DNA from: Crambe crambe
Lineage: Eukaryota > Porifera > Demospongiae > Poecilosclerida > Crambeidae
DNA length: 64,000 nt
NCBI GenBank assembly: GCA_963924555.1
Contig: OZ004581.1
Span: 9,463,338 to 9,527,337 of the forward strand
Direction: 5' to 3'
Each line of letters opens with the position of its first letter. Position 1 is the stretch's first letter. This document shows, piece by piece, positions 12,822 through 52,708 of the stretch. The notes beneath the pieces are model-generated. The model was not told the DNA's origin. It worked only from the letters and a program-made list of their open reading frames with translations, and did not search any database. Both the position numbers and the translations under genes were made by a program.

Positions 12822-16221
<3,400 letters not shown>

Positions 16222-17196: not shown

Positions 17197-17208
17197 TGCG
17201 CATGCGCG
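17197..17208 (+). promoter_or_regulatory. NRF1-like promoter box, receptor copy A
   Basis: The palindrome TGCGCATGCGCG, followed at once by TTCGAACGCCAT, lies 63 bases before the start codon. It matches the NRF1 consensus (YGCGCAYGCGCR). The same 23-base module precedes every copy in the array, within 28 to 63 bases of the ATG. Function is inferred from conservation and consensus. Confidence 0.55.
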
Positions 17209-17270
17209 TTCGAACGCCATCCAATTCCAACTGTACACTGAAAATGTACAGTATCTATGCACTGAGCAAC

Positions 17271-20200
17271 ATGGTCAAGTTACTGCTGTTTTTCCAGTGC
17301 CTCCTGATGATATCGCTAGAGTCCATTCGTGTTTCTGCTCAAAGTGACTGTAGTAGAATTATAGCTCTCTAGCTGAGTTAATATAGTCAGGTAGTGTTGA
17401 CATAACACAACATCAGTTTGAAGATGGCACAATTATTATTATTTCACTATAGCACTGTTAGCTTCATCTACAATTCATGATATTCGAGTAGTGGGACATG
17501 GCTATTTTGATAGGTCCTGTTCATATAGTGGGTAAGTTAGGTTAACAGTACTGTGAATTCACAGTTGATCTTACTATTTTATACAGAACCAACACAGATT
17601 TTTTTCGCTTAGAAATACACTTGAATGGAACTGTACATCCAAGAGGAGGGAGGGGGAGAGATAGAGATAGATTTGTTGACATATCCATATCTGGACCTAC
17701 ATTTGCTGATTCAGGGGATTACAAATGCTCTGCATTATTTTCTGGTGGCATTGCAGTCAGATCTGTCAGTGCTGGATCCCTTCGTGTATATAGTTGAGTT
17801 ATATATATCATCATCAAACAAGTTGTGAAATATTTCTCCACAGGTACAGATGCCATATCTCACAGCCCAGCAGTTGTGAATGTGGCAGTAGGTGGCAATG
17901 CTCTCCTGGAGTGTTCCACAAGTATCCCTCAGACATATGCTGTATGGAGTGATTCCAATGGGATTTCTGACTTTTCTGGTGCGATCAGTAATGCTGGTTT
18001 GAAAGATGCACGCCAGTACAGTTGCAGTATTAAAGAAGAATCAAGACATAGTATAATTTACACTGGCTTGATCAGAATTGATATCGTTGGTAAGTGTCTA
18101 CTGTGTATAGAGTGTTAGTGTGTATGATTATTATAGCGACTATGTAGTTAGCTATATTATTATAACTACTCTTCCCTCTTGCTTGCTTTTGATGATATAA
18201 CTGTATAGCTAGCAATCTAGCTCATGAGGCTAGCTGAGGTTAAGCAACTATGAGACTAGGTATGAGGTTAGCTATTAGCTGTAGAGCTAGTGCGTGTACA
18301 GGATTCTTAGCTTATGACTAAATTAACTTTTTATGAATTGCCCATAAACACTTAATTCTTTCAGTTCCTCCAAAGATTATTACTGAGCCTCAAGTCTCTG
18401 ATATATATGGCAATGAAATGGTGAACTTTACCGTCTTGTTTTTGAGTGTACGGTTTTACACTGAGATTATCTGGCTCAAAGATAGTGTCCCCATTCACTC
18501 TGGGTTTGAAGTTCACTACCAGAACAGTACAACAGGAACCACTTCATTGGTGTTCGATCCCCTGACCCGTGCAGATGAAGGACTGTACACTGTGAGGATT
18601 TCCAACAACAACACATTGATCCCCACAGGAAGAAGACTTGTAACTCACAACTTTAGAGTGAATGTGAAAGGTATACTATACTCAAGACAGATTGAATGCT
18701 TGGATTGACTCTATATTATATGCAGTACCTCCTGCCATACCTTCAGTTCCACGGGTTCAAAGAATCAATGATTCACTTATCAGAGTCTCTTGGAGGTTGA
18801 TCAATCAGACAGCTGATGCCAGACCTGAGACCTTGCTACTGAATGTGACCAACCATCCTGACAGTCCTATCAACATCAACCCTCCTAACACTGAAGAGAT
18901 TCTGTTGCCTATTGAACCAGGTGTACAATATGACATTACCCTTCATTCCATTAACAGAGATGGAAGTGCTGTGTCTCCATCTCTACAGTATTCTATTCCC
19001 CCTACTGGTAATATCATAGGTTCACTATAGTGCTCTTATCTCATTGAAGATATCACTTTGTAGCACCTTTTGTGACAGAGGTAGCAGCATTAAAGGTGAA
19101 TGACTCTACATTCTACCTCGTAGTGGAAGTACTGTACACAGGGGCAGGCTCAGGGAACTTACTCTTAGTTGAAATTTTCTTCAGAGAAGCTGAAGAAAAT
19201 TGGATTCAACTAGGACGAAGTCTGGATCTTGTTCCCAATGAGTCCAGGCGGAACTGGCATGTGGTGGTGCAAGATGAACGCATTGCTCAAATCAGTAGAG
19301 TGGAGTTTTCATTTCGTATCCAAAATAGACTGAACCTAGAAGTAAGCAGAAGAGTAGAAGGAATATCAGGTACATAATACTAATCCTATAGTTCACAAAA
19401 AAAAACTTTCTTCTCTTCTCTTGCAGTTGTGCCAGGTCAACCCCATAGCATCAAACTTATTTCTGTCTCTTCTACTTCTCTCACAATACAAGCACAGCTC
19501 TCGGATATTGGAACTGCCCCCATACTATCAGCACACCTCAGTATTACTTCTCCTGATAGTACTTCCTCACTCCACGATGTGACAGAGAATCTATTCCAAG
19601 GGAAAGTGCTGGAGTTTGTGGTGGATGGTTTATCTTCTAACACCACCTACTTTGTTGTGATATATGCTGTTAATGCAGTTGGTAAAGGTCAGGAGAGTGA
19701 GAGGATGAACTTTACTACTACTGGTATGTGATAAAGCATATAGAATTCCCAAGTAGCTGATTCCCTGATCACAGTGTTAGCTACCTCAAGTTCTTCAATG
19801 ACTGGGGCAGTGATCGGTGGGATCTCGGGAGGCTTAGTTGCTGTAGCAGTTCTGCTCTTTGTGGTGATCATAGGATGTTGCTGGTATCATCGAAGGGAGA
19901 GAATACACAGTCAGTCAATGCATGACAATACTAATACGCTGTGTCTAGAGTCCCGGCAACAGGATCGGTCCGTTCAGGCCACCAGTCCCGGCACCCAGTG
20001 CCAGGACTATAGGCCAGCTTTGCTGGCCTATATGTATATTATAAAGGCTCCTGCAAGGGAGCGAGCGCAGCGAGCGTTAGGTGTATGGGACGTACTATTC
20101 ACGCACTGTTGTGACTCCAAGGCTAGGCAACACTCGCCCAGCTTGCAGTGCAGGCCCAAAGGGCTCCCTAAGGCAACCAAAGAGTTTGAAGTCAGAAGTA

Positions 20201-20845
20201 TAAATATCGCTTTCAAACAGTATTTTGTGGCGTTGCCACTGTAGCCCATCAGTTAGTGTATGCTGCGTGCTATTGACTGTGTGGTCTCGGGTTCGATTCC
20301 AAATTAGACTTTTTTTTTCTTTTTTCAATCTTTGAAAAAGTGTCCTGCCGGAACTGATAGCCTGAACGGACCGGGACTGTAGACACAGCCATACTAATAT
20401 CTCTCTACTAAATCTTCCTTTCCTCACAGCTAATAAGCATCATCCACCTCTTTCCACAAAAGCTGGCAAGTCGTCTTACAAAAGAACTAGTAGGCCTTCA
20501 GAAGAGCTTAGACAAAAAAGAAGAGATGACCCCTCAATTGGAGATTGCTCTTCAAAAGGAGGAGGTATCTCTTCAAAAGGAAAGAGGCCTTCAAAAGGAG
20601 ATAGGCCTCCAAAAAGTCCTTCAAAAGGAGATGGGCCTCCAAAGAGTCCTTCAAAAGGAGATGGGCCTCCAAAATGTCCTTCAAAAGGAGATGGGCCTCC
20701 AAAACGTCCTTCAAAAGGAGATGGGCCTCCAAAACGTCCTTCAAAAGGAGATGGGCCTCCAAAACGTCCTTCAAAAGGAGATGGGCCTCCAAAACGTCCT
20801 TCAAAAGGAGGAGATGGCCAAGGAGATCGGCCTTCAAAAGAATGA
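17271..20845 (+). CDS. Ig-FN3 transmembrane receptor, array copy A
   Basis: Type I membrane protein of 779 residues from ten exons: 17271-17343, 17453-17531, 17587-17792, 17844-18089, 18365-18670, 18726-19007, 19064-19369, 19427-19723, 19781-19909, 20430-20845. Order: signal peptide (MVKLLLFFQCLLMISL); a V-like Ig domain on exons 2-3 (Cys in RSCSYSG, DSGDYKC); an Ig domain on exon 4 (LLECS, AVW, DARQYSC); an Ig fold on exon 5 that keeps the Trp (IIWLKD) but lacks both disulfide cysteines; three FN3-like domains on exons 6-8; and a transmembrane helix ending GCCWYHRR. The 138-residue tail is rich in Lys/Ser/Gly/Pro and has about seven copies of a ten-residue repeat (PSKGDGPPKR type). The donor of exon 1 (A|gtgact) is weaker than in the other copies. 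A 454-base transposon lies in intron 9. A cell-surface recognition or adhesion role is inferred. Confidence 0.82.
19937..20390. mobile_element. Non-autonomous TIR element with internal tRNA-like promoter, in receptor A intron 9
   Basis: The element is flanked by a 9-base direct repeat, ATACTAATA, where copies B to D have only one copy of the site. Its ends are inverted: CGCTGTGTCTAGAGTCCCGG on the left, GGCTGTGTCTACAGTCCCGG read inward from the right. Both continue into GGTCCGTTCAGGC, with about ten extra bases on the left. A 9-base duplication with long inverted ends suggests a Mutator-like family. Near 20241-20300 there is a tRNA-like block with an A-box-like stretch (TAGCCCATCAGTTAG) and a good B box (GGTTCGATTCC), as in SINEs. 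There is no coding sequence. The insertion is recent relative to the array, since only copy A has it. Confidence 0.75.
20588..20815 (+). repeat. In-frame 30-base tandem repeat, cytoplasmic tail of receptor A
   Basis: Seven to eight near-identical 30-base units (CCTTCAAAAGGAGATGGGCC plus CTCCAAAACG) each encode ten residues of the form P-S-K-G-D-G-P-P-K-R. Only one codon position in the unit varies much (Ser, Cys, Arg). The unit is a multiple of three, so gain or loss of units keeps the frame. Related but rearranged units make up the tails of the other copies. Confidence 0.9.
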
Positions 20846-20849
20846 AGAT

Positions 20850-20975
20850 GAGGACCAAACTTCCTTTAAGAGTTCTGACTCTCCTGATGGGAAGGTGGGT
20901 GTGGCTACTTCAATCCCTTTCTTCAATGCTTTAGCCTAAAATTTAGACTGGCAGCCTTTCACTGCACCAAAAGTA
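20850..20975 (+). pseudogene. CAPSL exon 5/intron 5 fossil behind receptor copy A
   Basis: Starting four bases after the receptor stop codon, the sequence follows the end of CAPSL exon 5 (GAGGACCA, CTTAAGAGTT, TGACTCTCC, GGAAAGGTGGGTG) across the splice donor into intron 5 (TGGCTACTTCA, TCCCTTTCTT). After a gap it matches further intron sequence (GGCAGCCTTTCACT). The true gene has these at 15860-15965 and 16030-16060. It is not part of any CAPSL frame here and would form the receptor 3' UTR. Confidence 0.85.
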
Positions 20976-22189
20976 GTTGTCTAGGAACTATTCAGTTTGG
21001 AACTCTAATACCCCATTATAATCTTCCTCTTTTCGTTGTTGTTTTTGTTTTATTTATTTAGTTCTTGTTTATGCCAGATTCATCCTGAGTATCTTGTGTC
21101 CTAGGTTGTGTGTTGAGTGCAGCTCTCAGGCACTTTCCTTTGGACTCATCATAGTATCCCAACTCTCAAAAAAAATTTTTCCCTCTCATGCCATGCATAT
21201 GTGACAACGTCAACATTTGTGGTCAATAAAAAGTTTGCCTTTTTCCAGGGGGAGTCATTATAGACTAGTCAGAAATGACCGGGGAGTCACTCAGACCTAG
21301 GCGTGAGTGACCAGGGAGTGACCGAGGAGTCGTCGCCAAGGGGAGTCACCGCTGACTATGACACCGGGTCAAGTGAGTAGTGAGACATTTGAGTCGTTGC
21401 CTTCTCGAAAGAGTGGGTGGAATAGTGTCGAAAGAATGAAGCCCCAACCATTTTTTTCATCTGGTAACTTTTGGAATAAGAGTTGGAGATTATCGCTCGT
21501 CAGGTCATCAGCAAGAGGACCTTTTGCCTTTTCATCACATAGGTACCAACCTACATGCTCCGAGGAATCCAGTTCTGACCATTTAATATACAAGTGGGCT
21601 CCAACTGGGGGGAGACCCTTCCCATTTGGAACCTTCAGGGTCTCTCAATGGAAGGGATGAAGCTAAAGGATAGCAAGAAGAGGATATAGGAGATGAAGTA
21701 TGAAGATGCCTTTGACAGATAGAATTGTAGCTTTCCAACACTTGGTGGAGAAATAGCCAAGTGTATAGTTTGGAGTACATGTTTGTCATAGCTAGTCACC
21801 TCCATACATGACTAAGCATCGAGTTTGTGAGATCGAGAATGAAATGGTTTTTGACCGCAATTAGTATTTTTATCAGCCGTGATTTCATGCACTGAGAATT
21901 TATTTTAGTAAAGTATAGTAAAAGAAGGTGAAGCAGTTGTTAAATTTTCAAGTGGAGAGTAACTGGCACACCAACACACATTTTACACACTATATTTCCA
22001 GCCTGCCATGATCTTTACATGTCCATGAGTTCGCAAGACAAGGCAAAGGAGATGGGGGGTTAAACGAACTTCTTATTTTGGAAGTGAATGTACAGAACTA
22101 AGTACTTGCTGTATGTAGACACTATAATTATGGCGTGGGGGAGGGAAAAAAAATGTTCGAGTTGATGATTTGATTATGTTAGTCTAGAA
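20976..22189. other. Spacer between receptor copies A and B
   Basis: Holds an AATAAA polyadenylation signal at 21225-21230, a GAGTCA-rich block, and a region (21358-21790) that is repeated between copies B and C1 and in reduced form between C2 and D. That region has a minus-strand open stretch (residues such as HVGWYLCDEKAKGPLADD) shared by two copies. I do not recognise the protein. It may be a relic exon carried along by the tandem duplication. Confidence 0.5.
21247..21405. repeat. GAGTCA-rich spacer block, copy 1
   Basis: Tight cluster of GAGTCA/GAGTGAC words around the phrases GACTAGTCAGAAATGACCGG and CAGACCTAGGCGTGAGTGAC. The block recurs once downstream of copies B and C2. It may be an internal minisatellite carried by the array unit or a regulatory block; the sequence does not decide. 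Confidence 0.6.
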
Positions 22190-22201
22190 TGCGCATGCGC
22201 G
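22190..22201 (+). promoter_or_regulatory. NRF1-like promoter box, receptor copy B
   Basis: TGCGCATGCGCG followed by TTCGAACGCCAT, identical to the box of copy A, here 39 bases before the start codon. Confidence 0.55.
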
Positions 22202-22239
22202 TTCGAACGCCATCCAGCTAGCTAGCTGTATTGAGCAAC

Positions 22240-25180
22240 ATGATCAGGTTACTGCTGTTTTTCCAGTGCCTCCTGATGATATCGCTAGAGTCCATTCGTG
22301 TTTCTGCTCAAGGTGAGTGTAAGAGAATTATAGCTCTCTAGCTGCGTTAATATAGTCAGGTAAATTGCAACAAACACAACATCAGTTTTGAAGATTGCAC
22401 AATTATTATTTCACTATAGCACTGTTAGCTTCATCTACAATTCACAATGTTCGAGTAGTGGGACATGGTTTTTTTGGTAGGTCCTGTTCATATAGTGGGT
22501 AAGTTAGGTTTACCAGTACTGTGAATTCATAGTTGATCTTGCTATCTTGTACAGAACCAACGCAGATTTTTTTCGCTTAGAAATACACTTGAATGGAACT
22601 GTACATCCAAGAGGAGGGAGGGGGAGAGATAGAGATAATTTTGTTGACATATCCATATATGGACCTACATTTGCTGATTCAGGGGATTACAGGTGCTCTG
22701 CATTATTTTCTGGTGGCATTGCAGTTAGATCTGTCAGTGCTGGATCCCTTCGTGTATATAGTTGAGTTATAATTATCATCATAAAACGAGTTGTGAAATA
22801 TTTCTCTGCAGGTACAGATGCCATATCTCACAGCCCAGCAGTTGTGAATGTGGCAGTAGGTGGCAATGCTCTCCTGGAGTGTTCCACAAGTATCCCTCAG
22901 ACATATGCTGTATGGAGTTATTCTAACAGGCTTTCTGACTTTTCTGGTGTGATCAGTAATGCTGGTTTGAAAGATGCACGCCAGTACGGTTGTAATATTA
23001 TAGAAGAATCAAGAGATAATATAATTTACACTGGCTTGATCAGAATTGATATCGTTGGTAAGTGTCTACTGTGTATAGAGTGTTAGTGTGTATGATTATT
23101 ATAGCGACTATGTAGTTAGCTATATTATTATAACTACTCTTCCCTCTAGCTTGCTTTTGATGATATAACTGTAGCTAGCAATCTAGCCCACTGCTATGAG
23201 GTATATAGCTATGAGGCTAGCTGTATGAGACTAGGTATGAGGTTAGCTATTAGCTGTAGAGCTAGTGCGTGTACAGGACTCTTAGCTTATGACTAAATTA
23301 ACTTTCTTTCAGTTCCTCCAAAGATTATTACTGAGCCTCAAGTCTCTGATATATATGGCGATGAAATGGTGAACTTTACTGTCTTGTTTTTGAGTGTACA
23401 GTTTTACACTGAGATTATCTGGCTTAAAGATAGTGTCCCCATTCACTCTGGGTTTGAAGTTCACTACCAGAACAGTACAACAGGAACCACTTCATTAGTG
23501 TTCGATCCCCTGACCCGTGCAGATGAAGGACTGTACACGGTGCGGATTTCCAACAACAACACATTGATCCCCTCAGGAAGAAGATTTGTAACTTACAACT
23601 TTAGAGTGAATGTGAAAGGTATACTACTCAAGACATGGATTGAATGCTTGGATTGACTCTATATATATGCAGTACCTCCTGCCATACCTTCAGTTCCACG
23701 GGTTCAAAGAATCAATGATTCACTTATCAGAGTCTCCTGGAGGTTGACCAATCAGACAACTGAGGCTGGACCTGAGACCTTGCTACTGAATGTGACCAAC
23801 CATCCTGACAGTCCTATCAACATCAACCCTCCTAACACTGAAGACATTCTGTTGCCTATTGAACCAGGTGTACAATATGACATTACCCTTCATTCCATTA
23901 ACAGAGATGGAAGTGCTGTGTCTCCATCTCTACAGTATTCTATTCCCCCTACTGGTAATATCATAGGTTCACTATAGTGCTCTTATCTCATTGAAGATAT
24001 CACTTTGTAGCACCTCTTGTGACAGAGGTAGCAGCATTAAAGGTGAATGACTCTACATTCAACTTTGTAGTGGAAGTACTGTACACAGGGGCAGGCTCAG
24101 GGAACTTACGCTTAGTTGAAATTTCCTTCAGAGAAGCTGACGAGATTTTTGAAAATTGGATTCGACTAGGACGAAGTCTGGATCTTGTTCCCAATGAGTC
24201 CAGACGGAACTGGCATGTGGTGGTGCAAGATGAACGCATTGCTCAAATCAGTAGAGTGGAGTTTTCATTTCGTATCCAAAATAGACTGAACCTAGAAGTA
24301 AACAGAACAGTAGAAGGAATATCAGGTACATAATACTAATCCTATAGTTCACAAAAAAAACAACAACTTTCTTCTCTTCTCTTGTAGTTGTGCCAGGTCA
24401 ACCCCATAGCATCAAACTTATTTCTGTCTCTTCTACTTCTCTCACAATACAAGCACAGCTCTCGGACATTGGAACTGCCCCCATACTATCAGCACACCTC
24501 AGTATTACTTCTCCTGATAGTACTTCCTCACTCCACGATGTGACAGAGAATCTATTCCAAGGGAAAGTGCTGGAGTTTGTGGTGGATGGTTTATCTTCTA
24601 ACACCACCTACGTTGTTGTGATATATGCTGTTAATGCAGTTTTTAAAGGTCAGGAGAGTGAGAGGATGAACTTTACTACTACTGGTATGTGATAAAGCAT
24701 ATAGAATTCCCAAGTAGCTGATTCCCTGATCACTTAGCTACCTCAAGTTCTTCAATGACTGGGGCAGTGATTGGTGGGATCTCGGGAGGCTTAGTTGCTG
24801 TAACAGTTCTGCTCTTTGTGGTGATTGTAGGATGTTGCTGGTATCATCGAAGGAAGAGAACATGCAGTCAGTCAATGCATGATAATACTAATATCTCTCT
24901 AGTACTAAATCTTCCTTTCCTCACAGCTAATAAGCATCATCCACCTCTTTCCAACAGGAAGTTGTCTTACAAAAGAACCTGTAGGCCTTCAGAAGAGCTT
25001 AGACAAGAGATGCCCTCTCAATTGGAAATTGCTCTTCAAAAGGAGGGGGGAGCTATCTTTTCAAAAGGAAAGAGGCCTTCGAAAGGAGATAGGCCTCCAA
25101 AACGTCCTTCAAAAGGAGATAGGCCGAATCGTTCTTCAAAAGGAGTAGATGGCCTAGGAGATCAGCCTTCAAAAAAATGA
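22240..25180 (+). CDS. Ig-FN3 transmembrane receptor, array copy B
   Basis: The best-preserved copy: 728 residues, ten exons (22240-22312, 22420-22498, 22555-22760, 22812-23057, 23313-23618, 23673-23954, 24011-24325, 24388-24684, 24738-24866, 24927-25180), all with plausible splice sites. Architecture is as in copy A: signal peptide, V-like Ig, Ig, cysteine-free Ig, three FN3-like domains, transmembrane helix, tail. Nearly all introns are phase 1, so domains can be gained or lost without a frameshift. The second FN3 exon is nine bases longer than in A. The tail is the shortest of the array (84 residues, two or three repeat units). Ectodomain sequence is closest to copy A. The short last intron (gtcagt...cacag) is supported because copies A and D tolerate an insertion and an indel there. 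Confidence 0.85.
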
Positions 25181-25184
25181 AGAT

Positions 25185-25298
25185 GAGGACCAAACTCTCC
25201 TGATGGAAAGGTGGGTGTGGCTACTTCAGAGTGAATCCAACAAGGATCTTTCAGAATGCTTTAGCCTAAAGTTTAGACTGGCAGCCTTTCACTGCACC
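25185..25298 (+). pseudogene. CAPSL exon 5/intron 5 fossil behind receptor copy B
   Basis: Same arrangement as behind copy A but shorter. GAGGACCA is followed by a deletion to TCTCCTGATGGAAAGGTGGG and intron-derived TGGCTACTTCAG, then GGCAGCCTTTCACTGCACC after more array-specific sequence. Confidence 0.8.
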
Positions 25299-27087
25299 AG
25301 GCCAGGAACTATTCAGTTTGGAACTCTAATACCCCTCTTTCACCCCCACCCTCTTTTTGTTGTTTTTGTTTTATTTGCCTTGCCAACAAGATTCATCCTG
25401 AGTATTTTGTGTCCTGAGTGTGTGTCCATCAATAAAAAAATCAAACAATTCTTTCCCTGCATAATGACAATGTCAACGTTGTGAATTTTCTCATGCTCAT
25501 CTGTGGTCAATAAAAGTTTACCTTTGCCTTACCTTTGGGATGTGCAGTGACACTGAATAAAATAAATCATGGCAGGCAGTGTAGCTATAAAGAATGTGGA
25601 TTGATAAGTCTTTTTCCATGGGCAGACAAATCAGAAATGACCGGGGAGTCAATCAGACCTAGGCATGAATGAGCAGGAGTCATCCACACCTAGTCAAGAG
25701 TGCTCATTTTTTCCAGGGGGAGTCATTATAGACTAGTCAGAAATGACCGGGGAGTCACTCAGACCTAGGCGTGAGTGACTGGGAGTCATCCAGACCTAGT
25801 CTGGAGTGACCGGGGAAGGGGAGTCACTGTTGACTATGACACTGGGTCAAGTGAGTAGTGAGACACTTGAGTCTTTTTCAATTTTGCCTTCTTGAAAGAG
25901 TGTGGCGGGTTTAGCACTCTAGGGTGGAATAGTGTCGAGAGAATGCCATTTTTTTCATCTGGCAGCTAGCTAACTTTTGGAATAAGAGTTGGAGATTATC
26001 GCTCGTCAGGTCATCAGCAAGAGGACCTTTTGCCTTTTCATCACATAGGTACCAACCTACAAGCTCCAAGGAATCCGGTTCTGACCATACAAGTGGGCTC
26101 CAACTGGGGGAAGACCCTTCCCATTTGGAACCTTCAGGGTCGCTCAATGGAAGGGATAAAAGGATAGCAAGAAGAGGATATAATATAGGAGATGAAGTGT
26201 AAAGATGCCTTTGACAGATAGAATTGTAGCTTTCCAACACTTGGTGGAGAAATAGCCAAGTGTATAATTTGGAGTACATGTTTGTTATAGCTAGTCACCT
26301 CCATACATGACTAAGCTTGTCTAACATTTTGTGAGAGTGCGTTTCTCAGGTCGATGAAAGGTTGGGACTTACAATAATAAGGCATTAATGCTCATGATGT
26401 GCTGTAGTCAGACTACTACTCCATGACAGTGATTAGTCTGGCATAGCCGACCCTTTACTGTAACAAAGCCTTTCTGCATGGATGTGTCGATGATGCCATT
26501 CGGTATTAACCTCTCCTATCTTCTTGCTAGAATTTAGTTTCCCAATGCAGGGCAATTAAAGTTGCAGGGTCACCTTTCTTGTATATTACATTGATTTAGC
26601 CAGGCACCATTCAGGAGGGGAGACTAGGATCTTTGTAATTAATGTAGTCAAGAAGTGTTAAGGCAGATTCTTCAGGTGGTGGTGGTATTCATAAATTGAT
26701 TTTATCTTCGCCAGGTGATGATTTTGAAGAGCGTGCATCCTTTATTCGTAAGGGAGGGTATTCTGATGCAACTGTAGGTGGATAGGAAACGCCCATTGAG
26801 TTAATTGTCATAGTGTTGTGTGTGTGCCATTAGATGACGGATGAAATTCGGTGTTGCTAGGGATAAAACTGCTTCTGACTGCCCTTTAATACTTTTCTTT
26901 AACAACCGTATAGTTTAACGCTGAGATGCACCATTACTTTCTCTCTACTCAGATCCGCTATCCAATGTATTCGGGGTGCTCGTTCGAAAAGTGGGTTCGC
27001 ATCAAGATCTCCCCGGACCTCATTTAGATCATAAGTTTTGATCTCATCTGATAACTTCACCATCAAAAAAAAATCTTTAGTATAGAA
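25299..27087. other. Spacer between receptor copies B and C1
   Basis: Contains two AATAAA signals (about 25429 and 25508), two tandem versions of the GAGTCA-rich block (25614-25870) and the second copy of the minus-strand open stretch (25911-26279). A region around 26340-26540 recurs before copy D (33177-33300). From about 26540 to 27060 I see only unique intergenic DNA. Confidence 0.5.
25614..25870. repeat. GAGTCA-rich spacer block, copies 2a and 2b
   Basis: The block found behind copy A occurs here as a complete version (from about 25713) preceded by a partial, more divergent one (from about 25625), both with TCAGAAATGACCGGGGAGTC. The local duplication shows the block itself can expand. 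Confidence 0.6.
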
Positions 27088-27099
27088 TGCGCATGCGCG
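27088..27099 (+). promoter_or_regulatory. NRF1-like promoter box, truncated copy C1
   Basis: TGCGCATGCGCG followed by TTCGAACGCCAT, 37 bases before the signal-peptide ATG of C1. The box is intact although the gene behind it is broken. Confidence 0.5.
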
Positions 27100-27135
27100 T
27101 TCGAACGCCATTATATCCGAGCGATCTTGGACAAC

Positions 27136-28003
27136 ATGAGCAGGTCACTACAGTTTTTCCGATGCCTCGTAATGATATCGCTGGAGTCCATTCGAGTTTC
27201 TTCTCAAGGTGAATGTAGGCTCTCTAACTGAGTTAATATAGTCGAGTAGACATTCTGGTAGCTAGATCTTATTAAACGTTAGCACAATGTCATTCATTAT
27301 TTTGAAGGTGTGACATAATTGTTTCATTATAGAACTGTCAGTTTCATCAACAGCTCACACTGTTCGAGTAGTGGGACATGGTTATTTTACTAGGTCCTGT
27401 AGATATAGAGGGTAAGTTAGGTTAACAGTACTGTGAATATATTAGTCGATCTTGATATCTTGTAGCTACAGAAACAGTGTAGATTTTTTTTCGCTTAGAA
27501 ATACACTTGAATGGAACTGTATATCCAAGAGGAGGGAGGGGGAGAGATAGACATGATTATGTTGATATACGTATACGTGGACTTACATATGCAGATTCGG
27601 GGGATTACAAGTGCTCTGCATTATTTTCTGGTGGCATTGCAGTCAGATCTGTCAGTGCTGGATCCCTTCGTGTATATAGTTGAGTTATATATATCATCAT
27701 AAAACGAGTTATGAGATAGCTACATAATTATTATGATATTTCTCTGCAGGTACAGATGCCATATCTCACAACCCACCAGTTGTGAATGTGGTAGAAGGTG
27801 GAAATGGTCTCCTGGAGTGTTCCACAAGTATCCCTCAGACATATGTTGTATGGAGTTATTCTAACAGGCTTTCTGATTTTTCTGGTGTGGTCAGTAATGC
27901 TGGTTTGAGAGATGCACGCCAGTACGGTTGCACTATTATAGAAGTATCAACAAATCATTTAATTTACACTGGCTTGATCAAAATTGAAGTGTCTACTGTG
28001 TAG
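27136..28003 (+). pseudogene. Truncated Ig-FN3 receptor, array copy C1
   Basis: Signal-peptide exon (27136-27208), exon 2 (27333-27411) and the two following Ig exons are recognisable and closest to copies C2 and D. Exon 3 has eight T where the others keep seven in the GATTTTTTTCGC stretch, which shifts the frame. At the end of exon 4 (from 27750) the bases holding the splice donor (GTTGTTGGTAA) are missing, so the frame runs into a stop near 28003. No FN3, transmembrane or tail exon follows; an unrelated transposase remnant does. A short secreted Ig product from exon 4 alone is unlikely. This is a host gene fragment, best called a pseudogene. Confidence 0.8.
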
Positions 28004-28704
28004 AGTCCAAGAACCGAAATCTTTCGTAACCATAGCTGGATTGATGCCTGGTTCCACTTGCCGTAAATATTTTCATAAGCAAAATGTTTTCTGCATCAAG
28101 CGTGCGGAAAAGCATCGACACTTGACCATAGATATACTAGACTTGTACTTAACTTACGTACACAGGATTGGAAACAGGTCACGTGCGCCCATAACGACAA
28201 TACTGACAATCCGTGTAGGCAGCTGTTCGTGCTAAATTGCCCCAAACAAACAGGGGAGGAGAAGTAGTGTGCCAAATTTCTGCTAAACTATAGCCAATTG
28301 GTAAGTTCAAAGAATGCAAAGAGTGGGCTAGTATAGTGCTAAACAAGCATAGTTCTTAAAAAGGCTGGTTTCTCAAGTGTTAGAGGGTATAATTGCGAGT
28401 AACAATGGTAGTTCGACTTTGTGGACCTCTGGAGCTTGGATGTTAAAAGTATAGTCTCTTTTTCCCCACTAATCTGTTAGGTAGTGATCATTTATATGTA
28501 CATATGTACTTTTTAAAGGTGCCTGTAAAAAAATCATGTTGATGTTACTGTTTCTTCAGATTACCCATGGCTGGCTGTCAAGAAAAGCTATAGTAAAGAA
28601 GGATACTATAATGTAGCAACTAATACTGTCACTTTACACATATTTTCTTTCATGTTATAATAAAAAAATGATGAGTTTAATTTAATCCTGACAGTCTTCA
28701 CAGA
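28004..28704. other. Intron remnant of copy C1 and unique spacer
   Basis: The first 130 bases match the intron after exon 4 in copies C2 and D (GGTTCCACTTGCCGTAAAT). After that, to 28704, I see no gene or repeat. Confidence 0.5.
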
Positions 28705-29272
28705 TTAGTCAACTTTTCCATAGATACAAAATACATGAAACCATCGGTCGCATACTTTATAGTCTATCCAGAACACATTTCTCTCATTACAACCATCTGG
28801 CTCCCGTTTCAAACACTTCTCACAAACAGTATCTGATTCATTGCCATCTGAAGATTCCACAGTGTCATCACTTCTCTTGAATCTTGCTGGGAGACGGACT
28901 TTTCTTTCAGGGTGGCACTTACAAAATCGTGTGAACCAGTTCTTGCTTAGTCCTTCGTCTGGAAACCGGTCAGCCTTGCCTGATCTTATGGCAATGGCTC
29001 ATCCAAAGGCAGTGGTCATTCTAGGAGTGAGTGGGAAGCCTTGTTTTGCCATATGAACAAGATATGCCACTAAAGCATCCTCTTCCTCTTTCGATAGTAC
29101 TGTTGAAGGTCCATGGCTTTTGCCATGCCGAACCCGGCCTTTTATTCTATCATCCAATTGGAACATGATAGATCCTAGCCATAGAAGTGATTGTTCCTTT
29201 GCCCTCTTTTACTGCATTCATTGCAGCTACCATGTCAGAGTCCTGCCACTGCTTTCTCCTTGCTTTGGCCAT
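28705..29272 (-). mobile_element. Decayed pogo/Tigger-type DNA transposase fragment
   Basis: On the minus strand the reading begins MAKARRKQWQDSDMVAAM, a psq-type helix-turn-helix start. It continues with a CENP-B-type DNA-binding segment (KEEEDALVAYLVHMAKQGFP, LSKNWFTRFCKCHPE) and then jumps to a Cys/His-rich end resembling a PHD finger (CEKCLKREPDGCNE, DRWFHVFC). The central DDE catalytic core of pogo-like transposases is absent. One frameshift near 29143 and an in-frame TGA near 29000 interrupt it. Terminal repeats were not found. It is an old, internally deleted DNA transposon lying between two receptor copies. Confidence 0.6.
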
Positions 29273-29640
29273 ACTGTAATGTTATAGATAACCATCCGTA
29301 TGTGACCAAGTTAGTTATTTGCTTCATTTAGAAGCTAAAATGAGGTCTAAATAGCTAGCTTGCTGTCTGGACCTACAACAACAACCCCTCCACCTACTCA
29401 ACCCCAGCAAAGCTTACTTAGAAAGCTTTTAGAGAGCTCTTGTGCCATGGACTAAACATTCCTCGAAAGAAAAAATACTGTCACCAAGCTAGCTTTAAAA
29501 GAAAGGCTGTTTCTAGAACTCACCTTTCGATAATACCGTCGATGCAGATATCAAAGTGGACCATGTGCTCTGGAGAATTTACTGGCAGTGTGCAAATCTC
29601 AGTAAACTATTCAATCTCGCACTTTTGATCTACGCTATAT

Positions 29641-29649
29641 GCATGCGCG
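29641..29649 (+). promoter_or_regulatory. NRF1-like promoter box (partial), receptor copy C2
   Basis: GCATGCGCG followed by TTCGAACGCCA, 28 bases before the start codon. The left half of the palindrome is altered (ATGCATGCGCG instead of TGCGCATGCGCG), so this is the weakest box in the array. Confidence 0.45.
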
Positions 29650-29676
29650 TTCGAACGCCAAGCGATCTTGGACAAC

Positions 29677-32411
29677 ATGGGCAGGTCACTGCAGTTTTTC
29701 CAATGCCTCGTGATGATATCGCTGGAGTCCATTCGAGTTTCTTCTCAAGGTGAATATAGGGTAGGAGAAATATAGCTCTAATAGATCTTATTAAACGTTA
29801 GCACAATATCATTCATTATTATGAAGGTGTGATTATGATTACATTATTGTTTCACTATAGAACTGTCAGTTTCATCAACAGATCACACTGTTCGAGTAGT
29901 GGGACATGGTTATTTTACTAGGTCCTGTAAATATAGAGGGTAAGTTAGGTTAACAGTACTGTGAAAAATTATATTAGTTGATTTTGATATCTCGTACAGA
30001 AACAGTGCAGATTTTCTTCGCTTAAAAATACACTTGAATGGAACTGTATTACCAAGAGGAGGGAGGGGGAGAGATAGATATGATTATATTGATAATGTTA
30101 ATTATGTTGATGTACGTATACGTGGACTTACATATGCAGATTCGGGGAATTACACATGCTCTGCATTTTTTTCTGGTGGCATTGCAGTCAGATCTGTCAG
30201 TGCTGGATCCCTTCGTGTATATAGTTGAGTTATATCATCATCAAACAAGTTGTGAGATACATATGATATTTCTCTGCAGGTACAGATTCCATATCTCACA
30301 ACCCACCAGTTGTGAATGTGGTAGAAGGTGGCAATGCTCTCCTGGAGTGTTCCACAAGTATCCCTCAGACATATGCTGTATGGACTTATTCTAACTTTGT
30401 TTCTGACTTTACTGGTGTGGTCAGTAATGTTGGTTTGAGAGATGCACGCCAGTACGGTTGCACTATTATAGAAGAATCAACAGATCGTTTTATTTACACT
30501 GGCTTGATCAAAATTGAGGTTGTTGGTAAGTGTCTACTGCATGTGTAGAGTCCAAGAAAGTGTGCTATCACCGAAATCTTTCCGTAACCCTAGCTGATCA
30601 TTATGGGGTTGATGCCTGGTTCCACTTGCCGTAAATATTTTCATATTAAGCAACTATGAGGCTATGAGGCTAGCTATAGCTGTAGAGCTAGTGAGTTTTC
30701 AGCTTATGACTAACTTAACTTTTATGAATTGCTCAGTTCCTCCAAAGATTACTACTGGCCCTCAAGTCTCAGATATTTATGGCATTGAAATGGAGAACTT
30801 TACCGTCTCGTTTTTGAGTTCACGATCTTTCACTGAGATCATCTGGCTCAAAGATAGTGTCCCCATTCACACTGGGTTTGAAACTCATTACCAGAACAGT
30901 ACTGCAGGAACCACTTCATTAGTGTTCGATCCCCTGACCCGTGCAGATGAAGGACTGTACACTGTGAGGATTTCCAACAACAACACATTGATCCCCACAG
31001 GAAGAAGACTTGTAACTTACAACTTTAGAGTGAATGTGGAAGGTATACTATACTACTCAAGACATGGATTGAAATGCTTACATTGACTCTATCCTTATGC
31101 AGTACCTCCTGATAGAGATGTGTCTCCATCTCTACAGTATTCTATTCCCCCTACTGGTAATATCATAGGTTCACTATAGTGCATCATACTAATCCATATT
31201 TCACAAAAAAACACTTCCTTCTCTTCTCTTGCAGCTGTGCCAGGTCAACCCCATAGCATCAAACTTATTTCTGTCTCTTCTACTTCTCTCACAATACAAG
31301 CACAGCTCTCGGATATTGGAACTGCCCCCATACTATCAGCACACCTCAGTATTACTTCTCCTGATAGTACTTCCTCACTCCATGATGTGACAGAGAATCT
31401 ATTCCAAGGGAAAGTGCTGGAGTTTGTGGTGGATGGTTTATCTTCTAACACCACCTACTTTGTTGTGATATATGCTGTTAATGCAGTTGGTAAAGGTCAG
31501 GAGAGTGAGAGGATGAACTTTACTACTACTGGTATGTGATAAAGCATATAGAATTCCCAAGTAGCTGATTCCCTGATCACTTAGCTACCTCAAGTTCTTC
31601 AATCACTGGGGCAGTGATCGGTGGGATCTCGGGAGGCTTAGTTGCTGTAACAGTTCTGCTCTTTGTGGTGATCGTAGGATGTTGCTGGTATCATCGAAGG
31701 AAGAGAACACGCAGTCAGTCAATGCATGATAATACTAATATCTCTCTAGTAGTAAATCTTCCTTTTCTCACAGCTACATCTCACAAAAGAACTAGTAGGC
31801 CTTCAGAAGGAGAGCTTAGACAAAAAAGAACCTCAATTGGAGATTGGTCTTCAAAAGAAGGAGGCGTCTCTTTAAAAGGAGAGATGCCTTCAAAAAGAGA
31901 TTGGGCTTCGAAAGGTTCTTCAAAAGGAGAAGATTGGCCTTCTACAAAAGGAGGAGATGGCCCTTCAAAAGGTTCTCCAGAAGAAGGAGATTGGCCTTCA
32001 AAAGGTTCTTCAAAAGGAGATTGGCCTTCAAAACGAGGAAGTGTCTCTTCAGAAGGGCCTTTTAAAAAAGGACAAACTCATAGGTCTTCAAAAGGAGGAG
32101 ATGGCAAAGGTTCTCCGGAAGGAGATTGGCCTTCAAAAGGTTCTTCAAAAGGAGATTGGCCTTCAAAACGACGTGTCCCTTTAGAACGAGGAAGTGTCTC
32201 TTCAGAAGGGCCTTTCAAAACTCATAGGTCTTCAAAAGGAGGAGATGGCCCTTCAAAAGGTTCTCCGGAAGAAGGAGATTGGCCTTCAAAAGGTTCTTCA
32301 AAAGGAGGAGGTGTCATTTCAAAAGGAGCTTTAAAAGGAGATAGGCCTCCAAATTATTCTTCGAAAGGAGGAGATGGCCAAGGAGATCGGCCTTCAAAAG
32401 AATGCAGATGA
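29677..32411 (+). CDS. Ig-FN3 receptor, array copy C2, lacking two FN3 domains
   Basis: Nine exons (29677-29749, 29861-29939, 30000-30223, 30280-30525, 30737-31042, 31103-31156, 31235-31531, 31585-31713, 31774-32411) encode 681 residues in one frame. Signal peptide and three Ig domains are present; exon 3 carries an 18-base in-frame insertion (DNVNYV). The first FN3 exon is cut by an internal in-frame deletion to 54 bases, and the second FN3 exon is gone with its introns fused. Only the third FN3 domain precedes the transmembrane helix. The ectodomain is thus about 185 residues shorter than in A, B and D. The tail is the longest of the array (212 residues), built from SKGSSKGDWP-type and RGSVSSEGPFKKG-type blocks, with no tyrosine motif of the ITAM or ITIM kind. 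Confidence 0.78.
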
Positions 32412-32597
32412 GGACCAAACTTCCTTAAGAGTTCTGACTCTCCTGATGGGAAGGTGGGTGTGGCTACTTCGGTCCCTTTCTTCAGTCATGAATTTGTATC
32501 ATCCTCTTCTTTTTTTTTTGAGTGAATCCAACAAGAATCTTTCATAATGCTTTAGTCTAATGTTTAGACTGGCAGCCTTTCACTGCACCAAAAGTAG
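32410..32597 (+). pseudogene. CAPSL exon 5/intron 5 fossil behind receptor copy C2
   Basis: The longest of the three fossils. It matches from GAGGACCA through CTTAAGAGTT, TCTCCTGATGGGAAGGTGGG, TGGCTACTTC, CCCTTTCTTCAGTCATGA and a T-run, as in CAPSL intron 5, then GGCAGCCTTTCACTGCACCA. Here it begins right at the receptor stop codon. Confidence 0.85.
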
Positions 32598-32885
32598 TTG
32601 TCTTGAACCGGCCAGGAACTATTCAGTTTGGAACTCTATCATCCCTCTTTCACCCCCACCCTCTTTTTGTTGTTGATGTTGTTTTATTTATTCAGTTCTT
32701 GTTTACGCCTTGCCAAAACTCTGGTCAAGATTCATCCTGAGTATCTTGTGTCCTAGGTTGTGTGTTGAGTGCAGCTCTCAGGCACTTTCCTTTGGACTCA
32801 TCATAGTATCCATCAACTCTAAAAACAAATTTTTCCCTCCCATGCAGGGAGTCAATCAACAGAGTGCTTAGAATGGTGGAGTCAT

Positions 32886-33060
32886 TTTTTCCAGGGGGGA
32901 GTCATTATAGACTAGTCAGAAATGACCGGGGAGTCACTCAGACCTAGGTGTGAGTGACCGGGAGTCATCCAGACCTAGTCTGGAGTGACCGGGGAGTCAT
33001 CGCCAAGGGGAGCCTGTCACCGCTGACTATGATACCGGGTCAAGTGAGTAGTGAGACACT
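32886..33060. repeat. GAGTCA-rich spacer block, copy 3
   Basis: Third occurrence of the block, with GACTAGTCAGAAATGACCGG and the same run of GAGTCA/GAGTGACC words, at the same place relative to the receptor gene as behind A and B. Confidence 0.6.
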
Positions 33061-33521
33061 TGAAAGAATGGCAATATATAAGTGGGCTCCAACGAGGGGA
33101 AGATCCTTCCTATAATATGGAACTTTCAATGGAAGGGATAGCAAGAAGAGGATATAAGAGATGATCAGGTCGATGAAAGTGATAGACATTAGCTTGGGAC
33201 TTACCATGCATTGATACTGAAGATGTGCTCCATGATGCCATTGATACCTGTAACAAAGCCTTTCTCCATGGATGTCAATGATGCCATTAATTATTACCAC
33301 CACCTGAAGAATCTGCCTAACACTTCTTGGCTACATTATTTATGAAGATCCTACCTAGCTAAGTCAATCCTATGTGTGACCCTGCAACTTTTCGTCAGAT
33401 TGCCTCACCCATAAAATTCCAGCAGAGAGGTTAAAGCGATTTCGAGCAGCTAGCAGTAGCTACTTTTCAAAATTTCATTGTAAAGCCAGGGATTTATATA
33501 GAGAGAAAATAATGTGAAATA

Positions 33522-33888
33522 CAGGGTTTCCAAAGTTAAAATTTGAAAACTCTGAATGGTCCTCAAAAAATCCAAACTTTTAATAGCAAAAAAATCTGAA
33601 TATGAAATTAATAGACCATGGTCTGTGAAAAAAATTATGGGTGATGAGAATCTTCTAAATACATTCATACAACTTCTAATCCTCATTGACATTGTATAAA
33701 CAGAGATGTCAGAGTATCCACATCAACTTTGACTCAACATTAGTATTCCATTTATTGTTTACATAATTAGAATAAAATTGAATTTCTCTTGAATTAAAAA
33801 AATCTGAGTATTAGGAGAAATCCTGTCCAAATACTGAACAGTCAGAGTGTATAAAAATCGGATAAAATCTGAAACTTTGGAGACCCTG
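33522..33888. mobile_element. Miniature hAT-like element between receptor copies
   Basis: The ends CAGGGTTTCCAAAG (left) and CAGGGTCTCCAAAG (right, read inward) form 14-base inverted repeats with one mismatch. They are flanked by TGAAATA on both sides (GTGAAATA left; the first G on the right overlaps the element end). A CAGGG start and a 7-8 base duplication fit the hAT superfamily. The 367-base AT-rich interior has no coding capacity. Confidence 0.7.
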
Positions 33889-34029
33889 TGAAATAACCAG
33901 GCTCATGATGTGCATGATACACATGATACAACATCGCTCTGAGTGATAGTGCCTTTTCAATCGCTAGGGGTTGTGAGAAGGTGCAGCAGGTGTAGTGCAG
34001 CCGAGGTGAACTTTGGCAGTAGTATAGAA

Positions 34030-34041
34030 TGCGCATGCGCG
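34030..34041 (+). promoter_or_regulatory. NRF1-like promoter box, receptor copy D
   Basis: TGCGCATGCGCG followed by TTCGAACGCCAT, 40 bases before the start codon. Confidence 0.55.
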
Positions 34042-34069
34042 TTCGAACGCCATCGTTGGACAATGCAAC

Positions 34070-37000
34070 ATGGTCAGGTCACTGCAGTTTTTCCAATGCC
34101 TCGTGATAATATCGCTGGAGTCCATTCGAGTTTCTCAAGGTGAATATAGGAGAATTATAGCTCTCTAGCTGAGTTAATAGTCGAGTAGGCATTCTGGTAG
34201 CTAGCTATTGTTATTATTTTTGAAGGTAGCTATGCAAAATTGTTTCACTATAGAACTGTCAGCTTCATCAACAGCTCATAGTGTTCGAGTAGTGGGACAT
34301 GGTTATTTTAGTAGGTCCTGTAGATATAGAGGGTAAGTTAGGTTAACAGTACTGTGAATATAGTTGATCTTGGTATCTCCTACAGAAACATTGCATTTTT
34401 TCTTCGCTTAGAAATACTCTTGAATGGAACTGTACATCCAAGAGGAGGGAGGGGGAGACTTAGACATGATTATGTTGATATACGCATACGTGGACCTACA
34501 TATGCAGATTCAGGGGATTACAAGTGCTCTGCATTTTTTTCTGCTGGCACTGGAATCAGATCTGTCAGTGCTGGATCCCTTCGTGTATATAGTCGAGTTA
34601 TATCATCATCAAACAAGTTGTGAGATACATGTGATACTTCTCTGCAGGTACAGATGCCATATCTCACAGCCCACCAGTTGTGAATGTGGCAGAAGGTGGC
34701 AATGCTCTCCTAGAGTGTTCCACAAGTATCCCTCAGACATATGCTGCATGGACTGATTCTAACAGGCTTTCTGATTTTTCTGGTGTGATCAGTAATGCTG
34801 GTTTGAGAGATGCACGCCAGTACAGTTGCACTATTATAGAAGTATCAACAAATCATTTAATTTACACTGGCTTGATCAAAATTGAGGTTGTTGGTAAGTG
34901 TTTAACCGAAATCTTTCGTAACCCTAGCTGATCATATGGGGTTGATGCCTGGTTCCACTTGCCGTAAATATTTTCATAAGCAAGATGTTTTCTGCATCAA
35001 GTGTGCGGAAAAGCATCAACACTTGACACTATATATAGCTATGAGGCTAGCTATAGCTGTAGAGCTAGTCAGTGTTCAGCTTATGACTAACTTAACTTTT
35101 ATGAATTGCTTAATTCTTTCAGTTCCTCCAAAGATTATTACTGAGCCTCGAGTCTCAGATATTTATGGCAATGAAATGGTGAACTTTACTGTCTCATTTT
35201 TGAGTCTGCTGTCTTACACTGAGATCATCTGGCTCAAAGATAGTGTCCCCATTCACACTGGGTTTGAAGTTCACTACCAGAACAGTACAACAGGAACCAG
35301 TTCATTAGCGTTCAATCCCCTGACCCGTGCAGATGAAGGACTGTACACTGTGAGGATTTCCAACAACAGCACATTGATCCCCACAGGAAGAAGACTTATA
35401 ACTTACAACTTTAGAGTGAATGTGAAAGGTATACCACTCAAGACATAGATTGAATGCTTACATTGACTCTATATATATATGCAGTACCTCCTGCCATACC
35501 TTCAGTTCCACGGGTTCAAAGAATTGATGATTCACTTATCAGAGTCTCCTGGAGGTTGACCAATCGGACAGCTGACGCCGGACCTGTGACCTTGCTACTG
35601 AATGTGACCAACCATCCTGACAGTCCTATCAACATCAACCCTCCTAACACTGAAGAGATTCTGTTGCCTATTGAACCAGGTGTACAATATGACATTACCC
35701 TTCGTTCCACTAACAGAGATGGAAGCGTTGTGTCTCCATCTCTACAGTATTCTATTCCCCCTACTGGTAATATCATAGGTTCACTATAGTGCTCTTATCT
35801 CATTGAAGATATCACTTTGTAGCACCTCTTGTGACAGAGGTAGCAGCATTAAAGGTGAATGACTCTACATTCTACCTCGTAGTGGAAGTACTGTACACAG
35901 GGGCAGGCTCAGGGAACTTACTCTTAGTTGAAATTTCCTTCAGAGAAGCTGACGAGGTTTTAGAAAATTGGATTCGACTAGGACGAAGTCTGGATCTTGT
36001 TCCTAATGAGTCCAGACGGAACTGGCACGTGGTGGTGCATGATGAACGCATTGCTCAAATCAGTAGAGTGGAGTTTTCATTTCGTATCCAAAATAGACTG
36101 AGCCTGGATGTAAGGAGAAGAGTAGAAGGAATATCAGGTACATAATACTAATCCTATAGTTCACAAAGGAACACTTCCTTCTCTTAATTCTCTTGCAGTT
36201 GTGCCAGGTCAACCCCATAGCATCAAACTTATTTCTGTCTCTTCTACTTCTCTCACAATACAAGCACAGCTCTCGGACATTGGAACTGCCCCCATACTAT
36301 CAGCACACCTCAGTATTACTTATAGTACTTCCTCACTCCACGATGTGACAGAGAATCTATTCCAAGGGAAAGTGCTGGAGTTTGTGGTGGATGGTTTATC
36401 TTCTAACACCACCTACTTTGTTGTGATATATGCTGTTAATGCAGTTGGTAAAGGTCAGGAGAGTGAGAGGATGAACTTTACTACTACTGGTATGTGATAA
36501 AGCATATAGACTTCCCAAGTAGCTGATTCCCTGATCACTTAGCTACCTCAAGTTCTTCAATGACTTGGGCAGTGATTGGTGGGATCTCGGGAGGCTTAGT
36601 TGCTGTAGCAGTTCTGCCCTTTGTGGTGATTGTAGGATGTTGCTGGTATCATCGAAGGAAGAGAACACGCAGTCAGTCAATGCATGACAATACTAATTAT
36701 CTCTCTAGTACTAAATCTTCCTTTTCTCTCAGCTAATAAGCGTCATCCACCTCTTTCCAAAAAAGCTGGCAAGTCATCTCACAAAAGAACTAGTAGGCCT
36801 TCAGAAGGAGAGCTTAGACAAAAAAGAACCTCAATTGGAGATTGGTCTTCAAAAGAAGGAGGCGTCTCTTCAAAAGGAGAGATGCCTTCAAAGAGAGATT
36901 GGGCTTCGAAAGGTTCTTCAAAAGGAGAAGATTGGCCTTCTAAAGGTTCTTCAAAAGGAGGAGATGACCCTTCAAAAGGTTCTCCAGAAGGAGATTGGCC

Positions 37001-37316
37001 TTCAAAACGAGGAAGTGTCTCTTCAGAAGGGCCTTTTAAAAAAGGACAAACTCATAGGTCTTCAAAAGGAGGAGATGGCAAAGGTTCTCCAGAAGGAGAT
37101 TGGCCTTCAAAAGGTTCTTCAGAAGGAGATTGGCCTTCAAAACAACATGTCCCTTTAGAACGAGGAAGTGTCTCTTCAGAAGGGCCTTTTAAAAAAGGAC
37201 AAACTAATAGGTCTTCAAAAGGAGGAGATGGCAAAGGTTCTCCGGAAGGAGATTGGCCTTCAAAACGACATGTCCCTTTAGAACGAGACAAACTCATAGG
37301 TCTTATATTGCTGTAG
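34070..37316 (+). CDS. Ig-FN3 transmembrane receptor, array copy D
   Basis: Ten exons (34070-34139, 34254-34332, 34386-34591, 34648-34893, 35123-35428, 35485-35766, 35823-36137, 36199-36489, 36543-36671, 36733-37316) give 835 residues with the full three-Ig, three-FN3 architecture. The signal peptide is one codon shorter than in the other copies, and the third FN3 exon lacks six bases, both in frame. The transmembrane segment has Pro in place of Leu (VAVLPFVVIVGCC). The 194-residue tail carries SKGSSKGDWP and VPLERGSVSSEG blocks and ends differently from the other copies (RDKLIGLILL-stop). A further open stretch beginning at 37316 may be an alternative last exon. No CAPSL fossil follows this copy. 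Confidence 0.8.
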
Positions 37317-37880
37317 GCAAGCCTGATATGAAAAAATCTAAGTCTGATAGTGTGACAACTGAGCGTGGTCCACTTCATCCAGATGGAACAGCCAAGTCTC
37401 ATCTTAAACCACATAAAGTAAGTATGCATGGATGAAGATCATACTTGGTGTTGTTAAGATAGTTTTATATGTCACAGTGACTCACCTGAGGGAAAAGCAT
37501 TGTAAGACCTACCTGGCTTATTCTCCCTTTCATGATCACGTTACATCACAGCTCTATGGTTTTGTTTTTGTTTTTGTAGTAGTTTTGTCTTGTTTTTTAC
37601 TGCTGCAGATGCACATTATGAAGCAATAATAATTTCCAAACCCTAAAGTCCCTATGTGTTAGTATTGACTATCTGCAGTGATAATATGATGTTGCTGGTG
37701 TCGTCAAAGCATATTCTCCGAATGCAATGCATGACAATATCAAAAAAGCTGGTGAAATAACTGGAGAGGTCCCTTCTGAACACTGCCAAGCCTGATTTAA
37801 GTCTGATAGAATGACATCTGAGCATAGTCCACTTCACCCGGATGCAACAGCCAGTTGACTTAATATAAACCACACGTAAT
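37316..37880 (+). pseudogene. Possible extra tail exon of copy D and relic copy E
   Basis: 37316-37419 is an open stretch preceded by CTGTAG and followed by GTAAGT. It would read KPDMKKSKSDSVTTERGPLH with a basic end and has the look of an exon. About 370 bases on, 37690-37865 repeats in order a decayed piece of the transmembrane exon (GATGTTGCTGGTGTCGTC, AATGCAATGCATGACAAT) and the same KPD exon (AAGCCTGATTTAAGTCTGAT, CCACTTCACCCGGATG). The order implies that an ancestral gene spliced from the transmembrane exon toward this tail. E is clearly dead. Whether copy D uses the exon is unknown. Confidence 0.55.

Positions 37881-48406: not shown

Positions 48407-52708
<4,302 letters not shown>

Follow-up and report, generated by a model that had tools for sequence, protein, structure and literature searches.

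Results

Organization of the receptor array

In the window, the 64,000-nucleotide stretch of Crambe crambe DNA that was analyzed, four intact genes for type I membrane proteins, one pseudogene and one 3' relic lie head to tail on the plus strand. Gene models were built by hand from an alignment of five copies, and splicing was predicted from the sequence. Gene A (17271-20845; 779 aa) consists of exons 17271-17343, 17453-17531, 17587-17792, 17844-18089, 18365-18670, 18726-19007, 19064-19369, 19427-19723, 19781-19909 and 20430-20845. Gene B (22240-25180; 728 aa) consists of exons 22240-22312, 22420-22498, 22555-22760, 22812-23057, 23313-23618, 23673-23954, 24011-24325, 24388-24684, 24738-24866 and 24927-25180, and comparison of the window with itself aligns A and B over 2.9 kb at 92% identity (E = 0), far beyond chance. 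The pseudogene (27136-28136, plus strand) retains only exons 1-4, carries a frameshift caused by an extra T in exon 3 and has lost the donor site of exon 4. Gene C (29677-32411; 681 aa) is composed of exons 29677-29749, 29861-29939, 30000-30223, 30280-30525, 30737-31042, 31103-31156 (the rest of FN3-1), 31235-31531, 31585-31713 and 31774-32411. Gene D (34070-37316; 835 aa) is composed of exons 34070-34139, 34254-34332, 34386-34591, 34648-34893, 35123-35428, 35485-35766, 35823-36137, 36199-36489, 36543-36671 and 36733-37316. The relic of a sixth copy (37678-37874, plus strand) comprises the end of a transmembrane exon and the original end of a tail without SKG repeats, and matches D with 70% and 79% identity (E 1e-5 and 1e-14, respectively).

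The reading frames of A, B, C and D are uninterrupted from signal peptide to stop codon and every intron is of the GT-AG type. In A, B and D ten exons encode, in this order, the signal peptide, Ig1 (two exons), Ig2, Ig3, FN3-1, exon 7, FN3-3, the transmembrane segment and the tail. Annotating the locus anew, with all copies aligned, showed that the original prediction of four full-frame receptors, a truncated copy and a relic in tandem was right in outline and coordinates, and its statement that introns are nearly all in phase 1 was borne out, the sole exception being intron 2, which is in phase 2 (8 of 9 introns are in phase 1 in A, B and D, and 7 of 8 in C). Contrary to what had been thought, the copies do not all follow one exon plan, because exon 6 of C is reduced to 54 nt and its exon 7 is missing, both deletions being in frame. 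Also, the peptide TAHTVRVVGHGYFTRSC, formerly quoted for a receptor "C1", belongs to the pseudogene, whereas intact copy C has TDHTVRVVGHGYFTRSC.

Domains of the ectodomain and the cytoplasmic tail

With the whole protein as query, the Pfam families Ig_3, I-set, V-set, ig and fn3 were matched above their curated cut-offs (Ig_3 with E 1.9e-12 and 4e-13). When each exon was searched separately, Ig3 (E 5e-7) and FN3-3 (E 7e-9) passed, and Ig2 (E 1e-4) and Ig1 (E 1e-3 in A) gave weaker matches below the cut-off. The matches of Ig1 and Ig2 are weak ones to V-set/ig and Ig3 is I-set-like. FN3-1, encoded by exon 6, gave only a weak fn3 match (E 0.024), and for exon 7, previously taken for a second FN3 domain, no match was found in Pfam or in the PDB. 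The assignment of exon 7 as FN3 is thus unsupported by both searches and three FN3 domains are not established. Read directly from the translations, Ig1 keeps Ig hallmarks in a cysteine pair with DSGDYKC, Ig2 keeps them in the pattern C...W...DARQYSC, and Ig3 has the tryptophan and lacks the cysteines. The best PDB matches were a Dscam FN3 domain (E 9e-6), an NCAM2 FN3 domain, a titin Ig domain and a MuSK Ig domain. Ig2 can be weakly aligned with IgLON5 and with antibody light-chain V domains, and the latter alignment places Ig2 residues 64-71 over CDR3. AlphaFold2 models obtained from shallow alignments were poor (pLDDT 49 for the Ig2 exon and 41 for exon 7). A signal peptide and a single transmembrane helix were read by eye from the translations, in the hydrophobic N terminus and in AVIGGISGGLVAVAVLLFVVIIGCCWYHRR, respectively, and the glycine-rich helix is followed by CCWYHRR.

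The tail exon is a succession of units with periods that are, almost without exception, multiples of three (18, 24, 27, 30, 33, 63 and 135 nt). The frame dictated by splice phase is the only one without an internal stop in all four copies, and therefore the other frames of the repeat tail were ruled out. In this frame the tails have net charges of +12 to +21, contain 4-14 copies of SKG and share a conserved KRT[SC]RPSE segment (4 of 4), and a search for tyrosine motifs of the type YxxI/L/V found none in any of the four. The tail is a basic, repeat-built (Ser/Lys/Gly/Pro) and probably disordered segment. In A, B and C it terminates immediately ahead of a fragment of another gene, described below, and in D it ends through a frame change ahead of KSDSVTTERGPLHPDGTAKSH, which is also present in the relic. 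The probable original 3' end of the tail lies at 37317-37412 (plus strand), where KPDMKKSKSDSVTTERGPLHPDGTAKSHLKPHK precedes GTAAGT and is out of frame with the present tail of D.

Origin and surroundings of the array

Directly upstream of the array lies an intact gene for a calcyphosin-like (CAPSL) EF-hand protein (12822-16221, plus strand; E 8e-87 to PDB 11yj). The stretch at about 15863-16060, which takes in the last part of the penultimate exon of this gene plus the next intron, is repeated behind the tails of A (20860-20975, plus strand), B (about 25195-25300) and C (32420-32596), each repeat marking a duplication junction; such a fragment was also looked for behind D and behind the relic and was not found there. 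A further collinear block pairs 16809-17300 with 21836-22269. The left end of the duplicated unit is at about 15863-16060, inside CAPSL. The stretch 15881-15992 had been considered as a receptor relic and was rejected, as it belongs to the intact CAPSL gene. The array is most simply explained if a unit that starts within CAPSL and extends through the receptor was duplicated in tandem, D being the original last copy.

A conserved 24-bp motif, ATGCGCATGCGCGTTCGAACGCCA, occurs on the plus strand at 17196-17219 (copy A), 22189-22212, 27087-27110, 29637-29660 and 34029-34052 (five matches, none expected). Each match precedes the start codon of one of the five copies by about 17-52 bp, and there is no other in the window. 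The core of the motif, TGCGCATGCGC, is palindromic and appears to resemble the NRF1 site, and ATGCGCATGCGCGTTCGAACGCCA is a candidate for a shared promoter element.

Several other elements were noted in and around the array. Intron 9 of A contains a 450-bp MITE-like insert (19937-20390, plus strand) with inverted ends CTGTGTCTA and AGTCCCGG, flanked by repeats of ATACTAATA and absent from B and C; the flanks duplicate the branch-point-like TACTAAT. Repeats common to the intergenic regions behind A, B and C (21239-21817, 25601-26316 and 32882-33164; 65-95% alike, no Pfam match) are apparently later insertions into the duplicated unit. The region 28200-29500, between the pseudogene and copy C, has no receptor similarity, and its minus-strand ORFs look transposon-like by eye and have no Pfam match. 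Outside the array, minisatellites are located at 45191-45370 (28 nt), 48733-48967 (81 nt) and 49760-49942 (30 nt), and an uninterrupted ORF of 891 codons with six filamin repeats at 59703-62378 on the minus strand. The neighboring genes, which have short introns, encode a kinesin, CAPSL, a gamma-tubulin complex component, a DEAD-box helicase, a cyclin, a collagen and filamin repeats, a set that indicates an animal and would suit a sponge. Rfam and tRNA scans found nothing.

Divergence between the copies

Silent divergence between copies amounts to 7-12% in the 5' half, versus 0.5-2% over introns 6 and 8 and FN3-3 (Fisher p 1e-5 to 0.04). Intron 6 is identical in every possible comparison, and no two copies differ at more than a single base of intron 8. 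The near identity of FN3-3 and of these introns indicates recent homogenization, and the contrast between the two halves is the pattern expected of gene conversion or unequal exchange confined to the 3' half. Near identity had been claimed for both the FN3-3 and the transmembrane exons; it holds for FN3-3 (0.3-2.0% nucleotide difference), and the transmembrane exon (3.1-6.2%) is less uniform than had been claimed.

Nei-Gojobori ratios of nonsynonymous to synonymous change over all pairs were 1.70 for Ig1a, 1.32 for Ig1b and 1.66 for Ig2, and for the inner exons 0.53 (Ig3), 0.71 (FN3-1), 0.88 (exon 7) and 0.56 (FN3-3). Nonsynonymous divergence in Ig1 and Ig2 (0.098-0.155) equals or exceeds the divergence of introns 2 and 3 (means of about 0.11 and 0.085). 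The four sequences A-D were also analyzed with a codon model written for this work. With a single ratio, w for Ig1 and Ig2 together was 1.47, which is not significantly above 1 (2dlnL 2.27), and therefore the signal of selection rests on the site model. A partition test gave w 1.62 for Ig1+Ig2 versus 0.76 for Ig3+FN (2dlnL 4.70, 1 df). Comparison of M1a with M2a on Ig1+Ig2 gave an LRT of 16.0 and assigned a w of 4.4 to about 30% of codons, a value to be read with the knowledge that there are only four copies and that exchange between copies can inflate site-model tests. None of 281 null simulations under M1a reached this LRT (largest 12.8, 99th percentile 8.5). Taken alone, Ig1 gave an LRT of 8.7 and Ig2 one of 8.0, the other two topologies preserved the M2a result with more rather than less support, and the Ig3+FN control showed a weak signal (LRT 4.38). 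Ig2 has six positions with at least three different residues, and every one of them is located beyond the C strand or within F/FG, segments that were chosen after the data had been seen. The statistics from these four copies show that amino acids in Ig1 and Ig2 have changed at or above the neutral rate.

Discussion

The array is, on balance, best understood as a recently amplified set of type I cell-surface recognition receptors whose outer domains are probably under diversifying selection. It had been proposed to be a recognition locus, and this proposal gains support in part: amino acids of the two outer Ig domains are replaced no more slowly than neutral change would allow, with a significant site-model test, and the inner half is conserved or homogenized. 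The predicted proteins begin with a signal peptide and two outer Ig domains that diverge between copies, followed by a conserved stalk of Ig3 and FN3-type exons, one transmembrane helix and the tail. The locus arose by tandem duplication of a unit of roughly 5 kb starting inside the neighboring CAPSL gene, as shown by the junctions; on this reading, later exchange between copies has kept the membrane-proximal half alike, and diversifying selection, for which the statistics from four copies speak, has separated the two outer domains, chiefly beyond the C strand and near the CDR3-like loop of Ig2. Ig1-Ig2 of each copy may bind a different ligand or its own kind, with Ig3-FN serving as a spacer. 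As the tails have no YxxI/L/V motif, output is proposed to occur through adhesion, the cytoskeleton, Ser/Thr kinases or a partner protein and not through ITIM/ITAM phosphorylation.

More specific roles can be weighed against the same data, and their probabilities overlap with that of the preferred reading because allorecognition and microbe sensing are narrower forms of it. Were the copies innate immune or symbiont-sensing receptors, each binding a separate microbial surface molecule, the birth and death of copies, the diversifying outer domains and the homogenized stalk would all be usual, and in sponges combinations of SRCR with Ig and FN3 domains have indeed expanded (PMC4772301); with a tail that has no signaling motif, this role can be proposed only tentatively. 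An allorecognition determinant, whose alleles or copies would bind homophilically so that the sharing of variants decides between fusion and rejection, as for Alr1/Alr2 of Hydractinia, is by analogy conceivable but unlikely. In its favor, the single-pass Ig proteins are encoded in a cluster, their outer domains vary, and a pseudogene and a relic accompany them, gross features that Alr loci show as well (PMC11067881, PMC11876637), but diversity between copies is not allelic diversity, the stalk is of the FN3 type, the tail has no tyrosine motifs and the known systems are unrelated between phyla (PMC12065747).

Two further explanations do without recognition. An adhesion receptor may simply have been duplicated recently under relaxed constraint, with no selection for diversity. 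In favor of this, the copies are young, one is dead and another is missing two domains, the tail ends are chance products of duplication junctions, and a single w is not above 1. This explanation is rather unlikely, for relaxed constraint predicts w near 1 throughout and not 1.6 versus 0.76, nor does it predict the M2a result; moreover, four frames are intact, all splice sites are kept and the two deletions of C are in frame. An assembly artefact in which allelic haplotypes of one gene were set side by side might be suspected from the 92% identity of the neighbors A and B. This is very improbable: each of A-C ends in a piece of CAPSL, as tandem duplication would be expected to leave at its junctions, which is evidence against an artefact, the copies have private insertions and deletions, and the flanking genes are single.

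For the preferred reading, that of an amplified array of recognition receptors, exons 2-4 are concrete and small candidates for work on self/non-self recognition in simple animals; to our knowledge, the self/non-self genes of sponges and other simple animals are largely unsettled. By analogy, the locus could even be a histocompatibility locus of an early-branching animal, drawn from an Ig/FN3 family not known for that role and signaling without tyrosine motifs, which we regard as quite unlikely. Were the role microbial sensing or ordinary adhesion instead, the locus would still show clearly how such an array forms, by duplication starting in a neighboring gene, exchange in one half and divergence in the other. 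In the open-licence literature no paper on such an Ig/FN3 family in sponges or cnidarians was found, and searches of genome-contig and viral-contig collections with the receptor alignment and with CAPSL gave a sole match (L001; 25 aa at 48%) that is too short to mean anything.

With Ig/FN3 adhesion molecules such as NCAM, Dscam, contactin and receptor phosphatases, the array shares the order of Ig followed by FN3 domains and the location at the cell surface. These molecules are usually conserved genes. The array differs from them in its tandem arrangement, its diversifying outer domains and its tail of Ser/Lys/Gly/Pro repeats.

There is no conservation between the candidate molecules of allorecognition in sponges, in cnidarians and in ascidians (PMC12065747), and therefore resemblance to allorecognition loci is by itself weak evidence. 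The Alr loci of Hydractinia are clusters of single-pass genes of the Ig superfamily whose outer domains vary, with many copies and with pseudogenes among them (PMC11067881), and the array likewise groups single-pass Ig genes with dead copies. The defining features of Alr are allelic polymorphism that predicts fusion or rejection, and homophilic binding. The Alr family numbers about 41 genes, their domains being of the V-set and I-set types (PMC11999971), compared with six units here, and unlike Alr the array has an FN3-type stalk and tails without YxxI/L/V; the two are compared here by description. Botryllus fuhc-tm is likewise a type I protein with three Ig domains, its tail being short, and the fester family is likewise multigene and varies in gene content (PMC12065747); for both, compared here by description only, no FN3 domains or repeat tail have been described. 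The vertebrate CEACAM and KIR clusters signal through ITIM/ITAM, whereas the tail motif YxxI/L/V of such receptors (CEACAM, KIR, FcoR) is absent from all four tails of the array, which shares with these clusters the character of fast-evolving, clustered Ig receptors (PMC13278318, PMC7516082).
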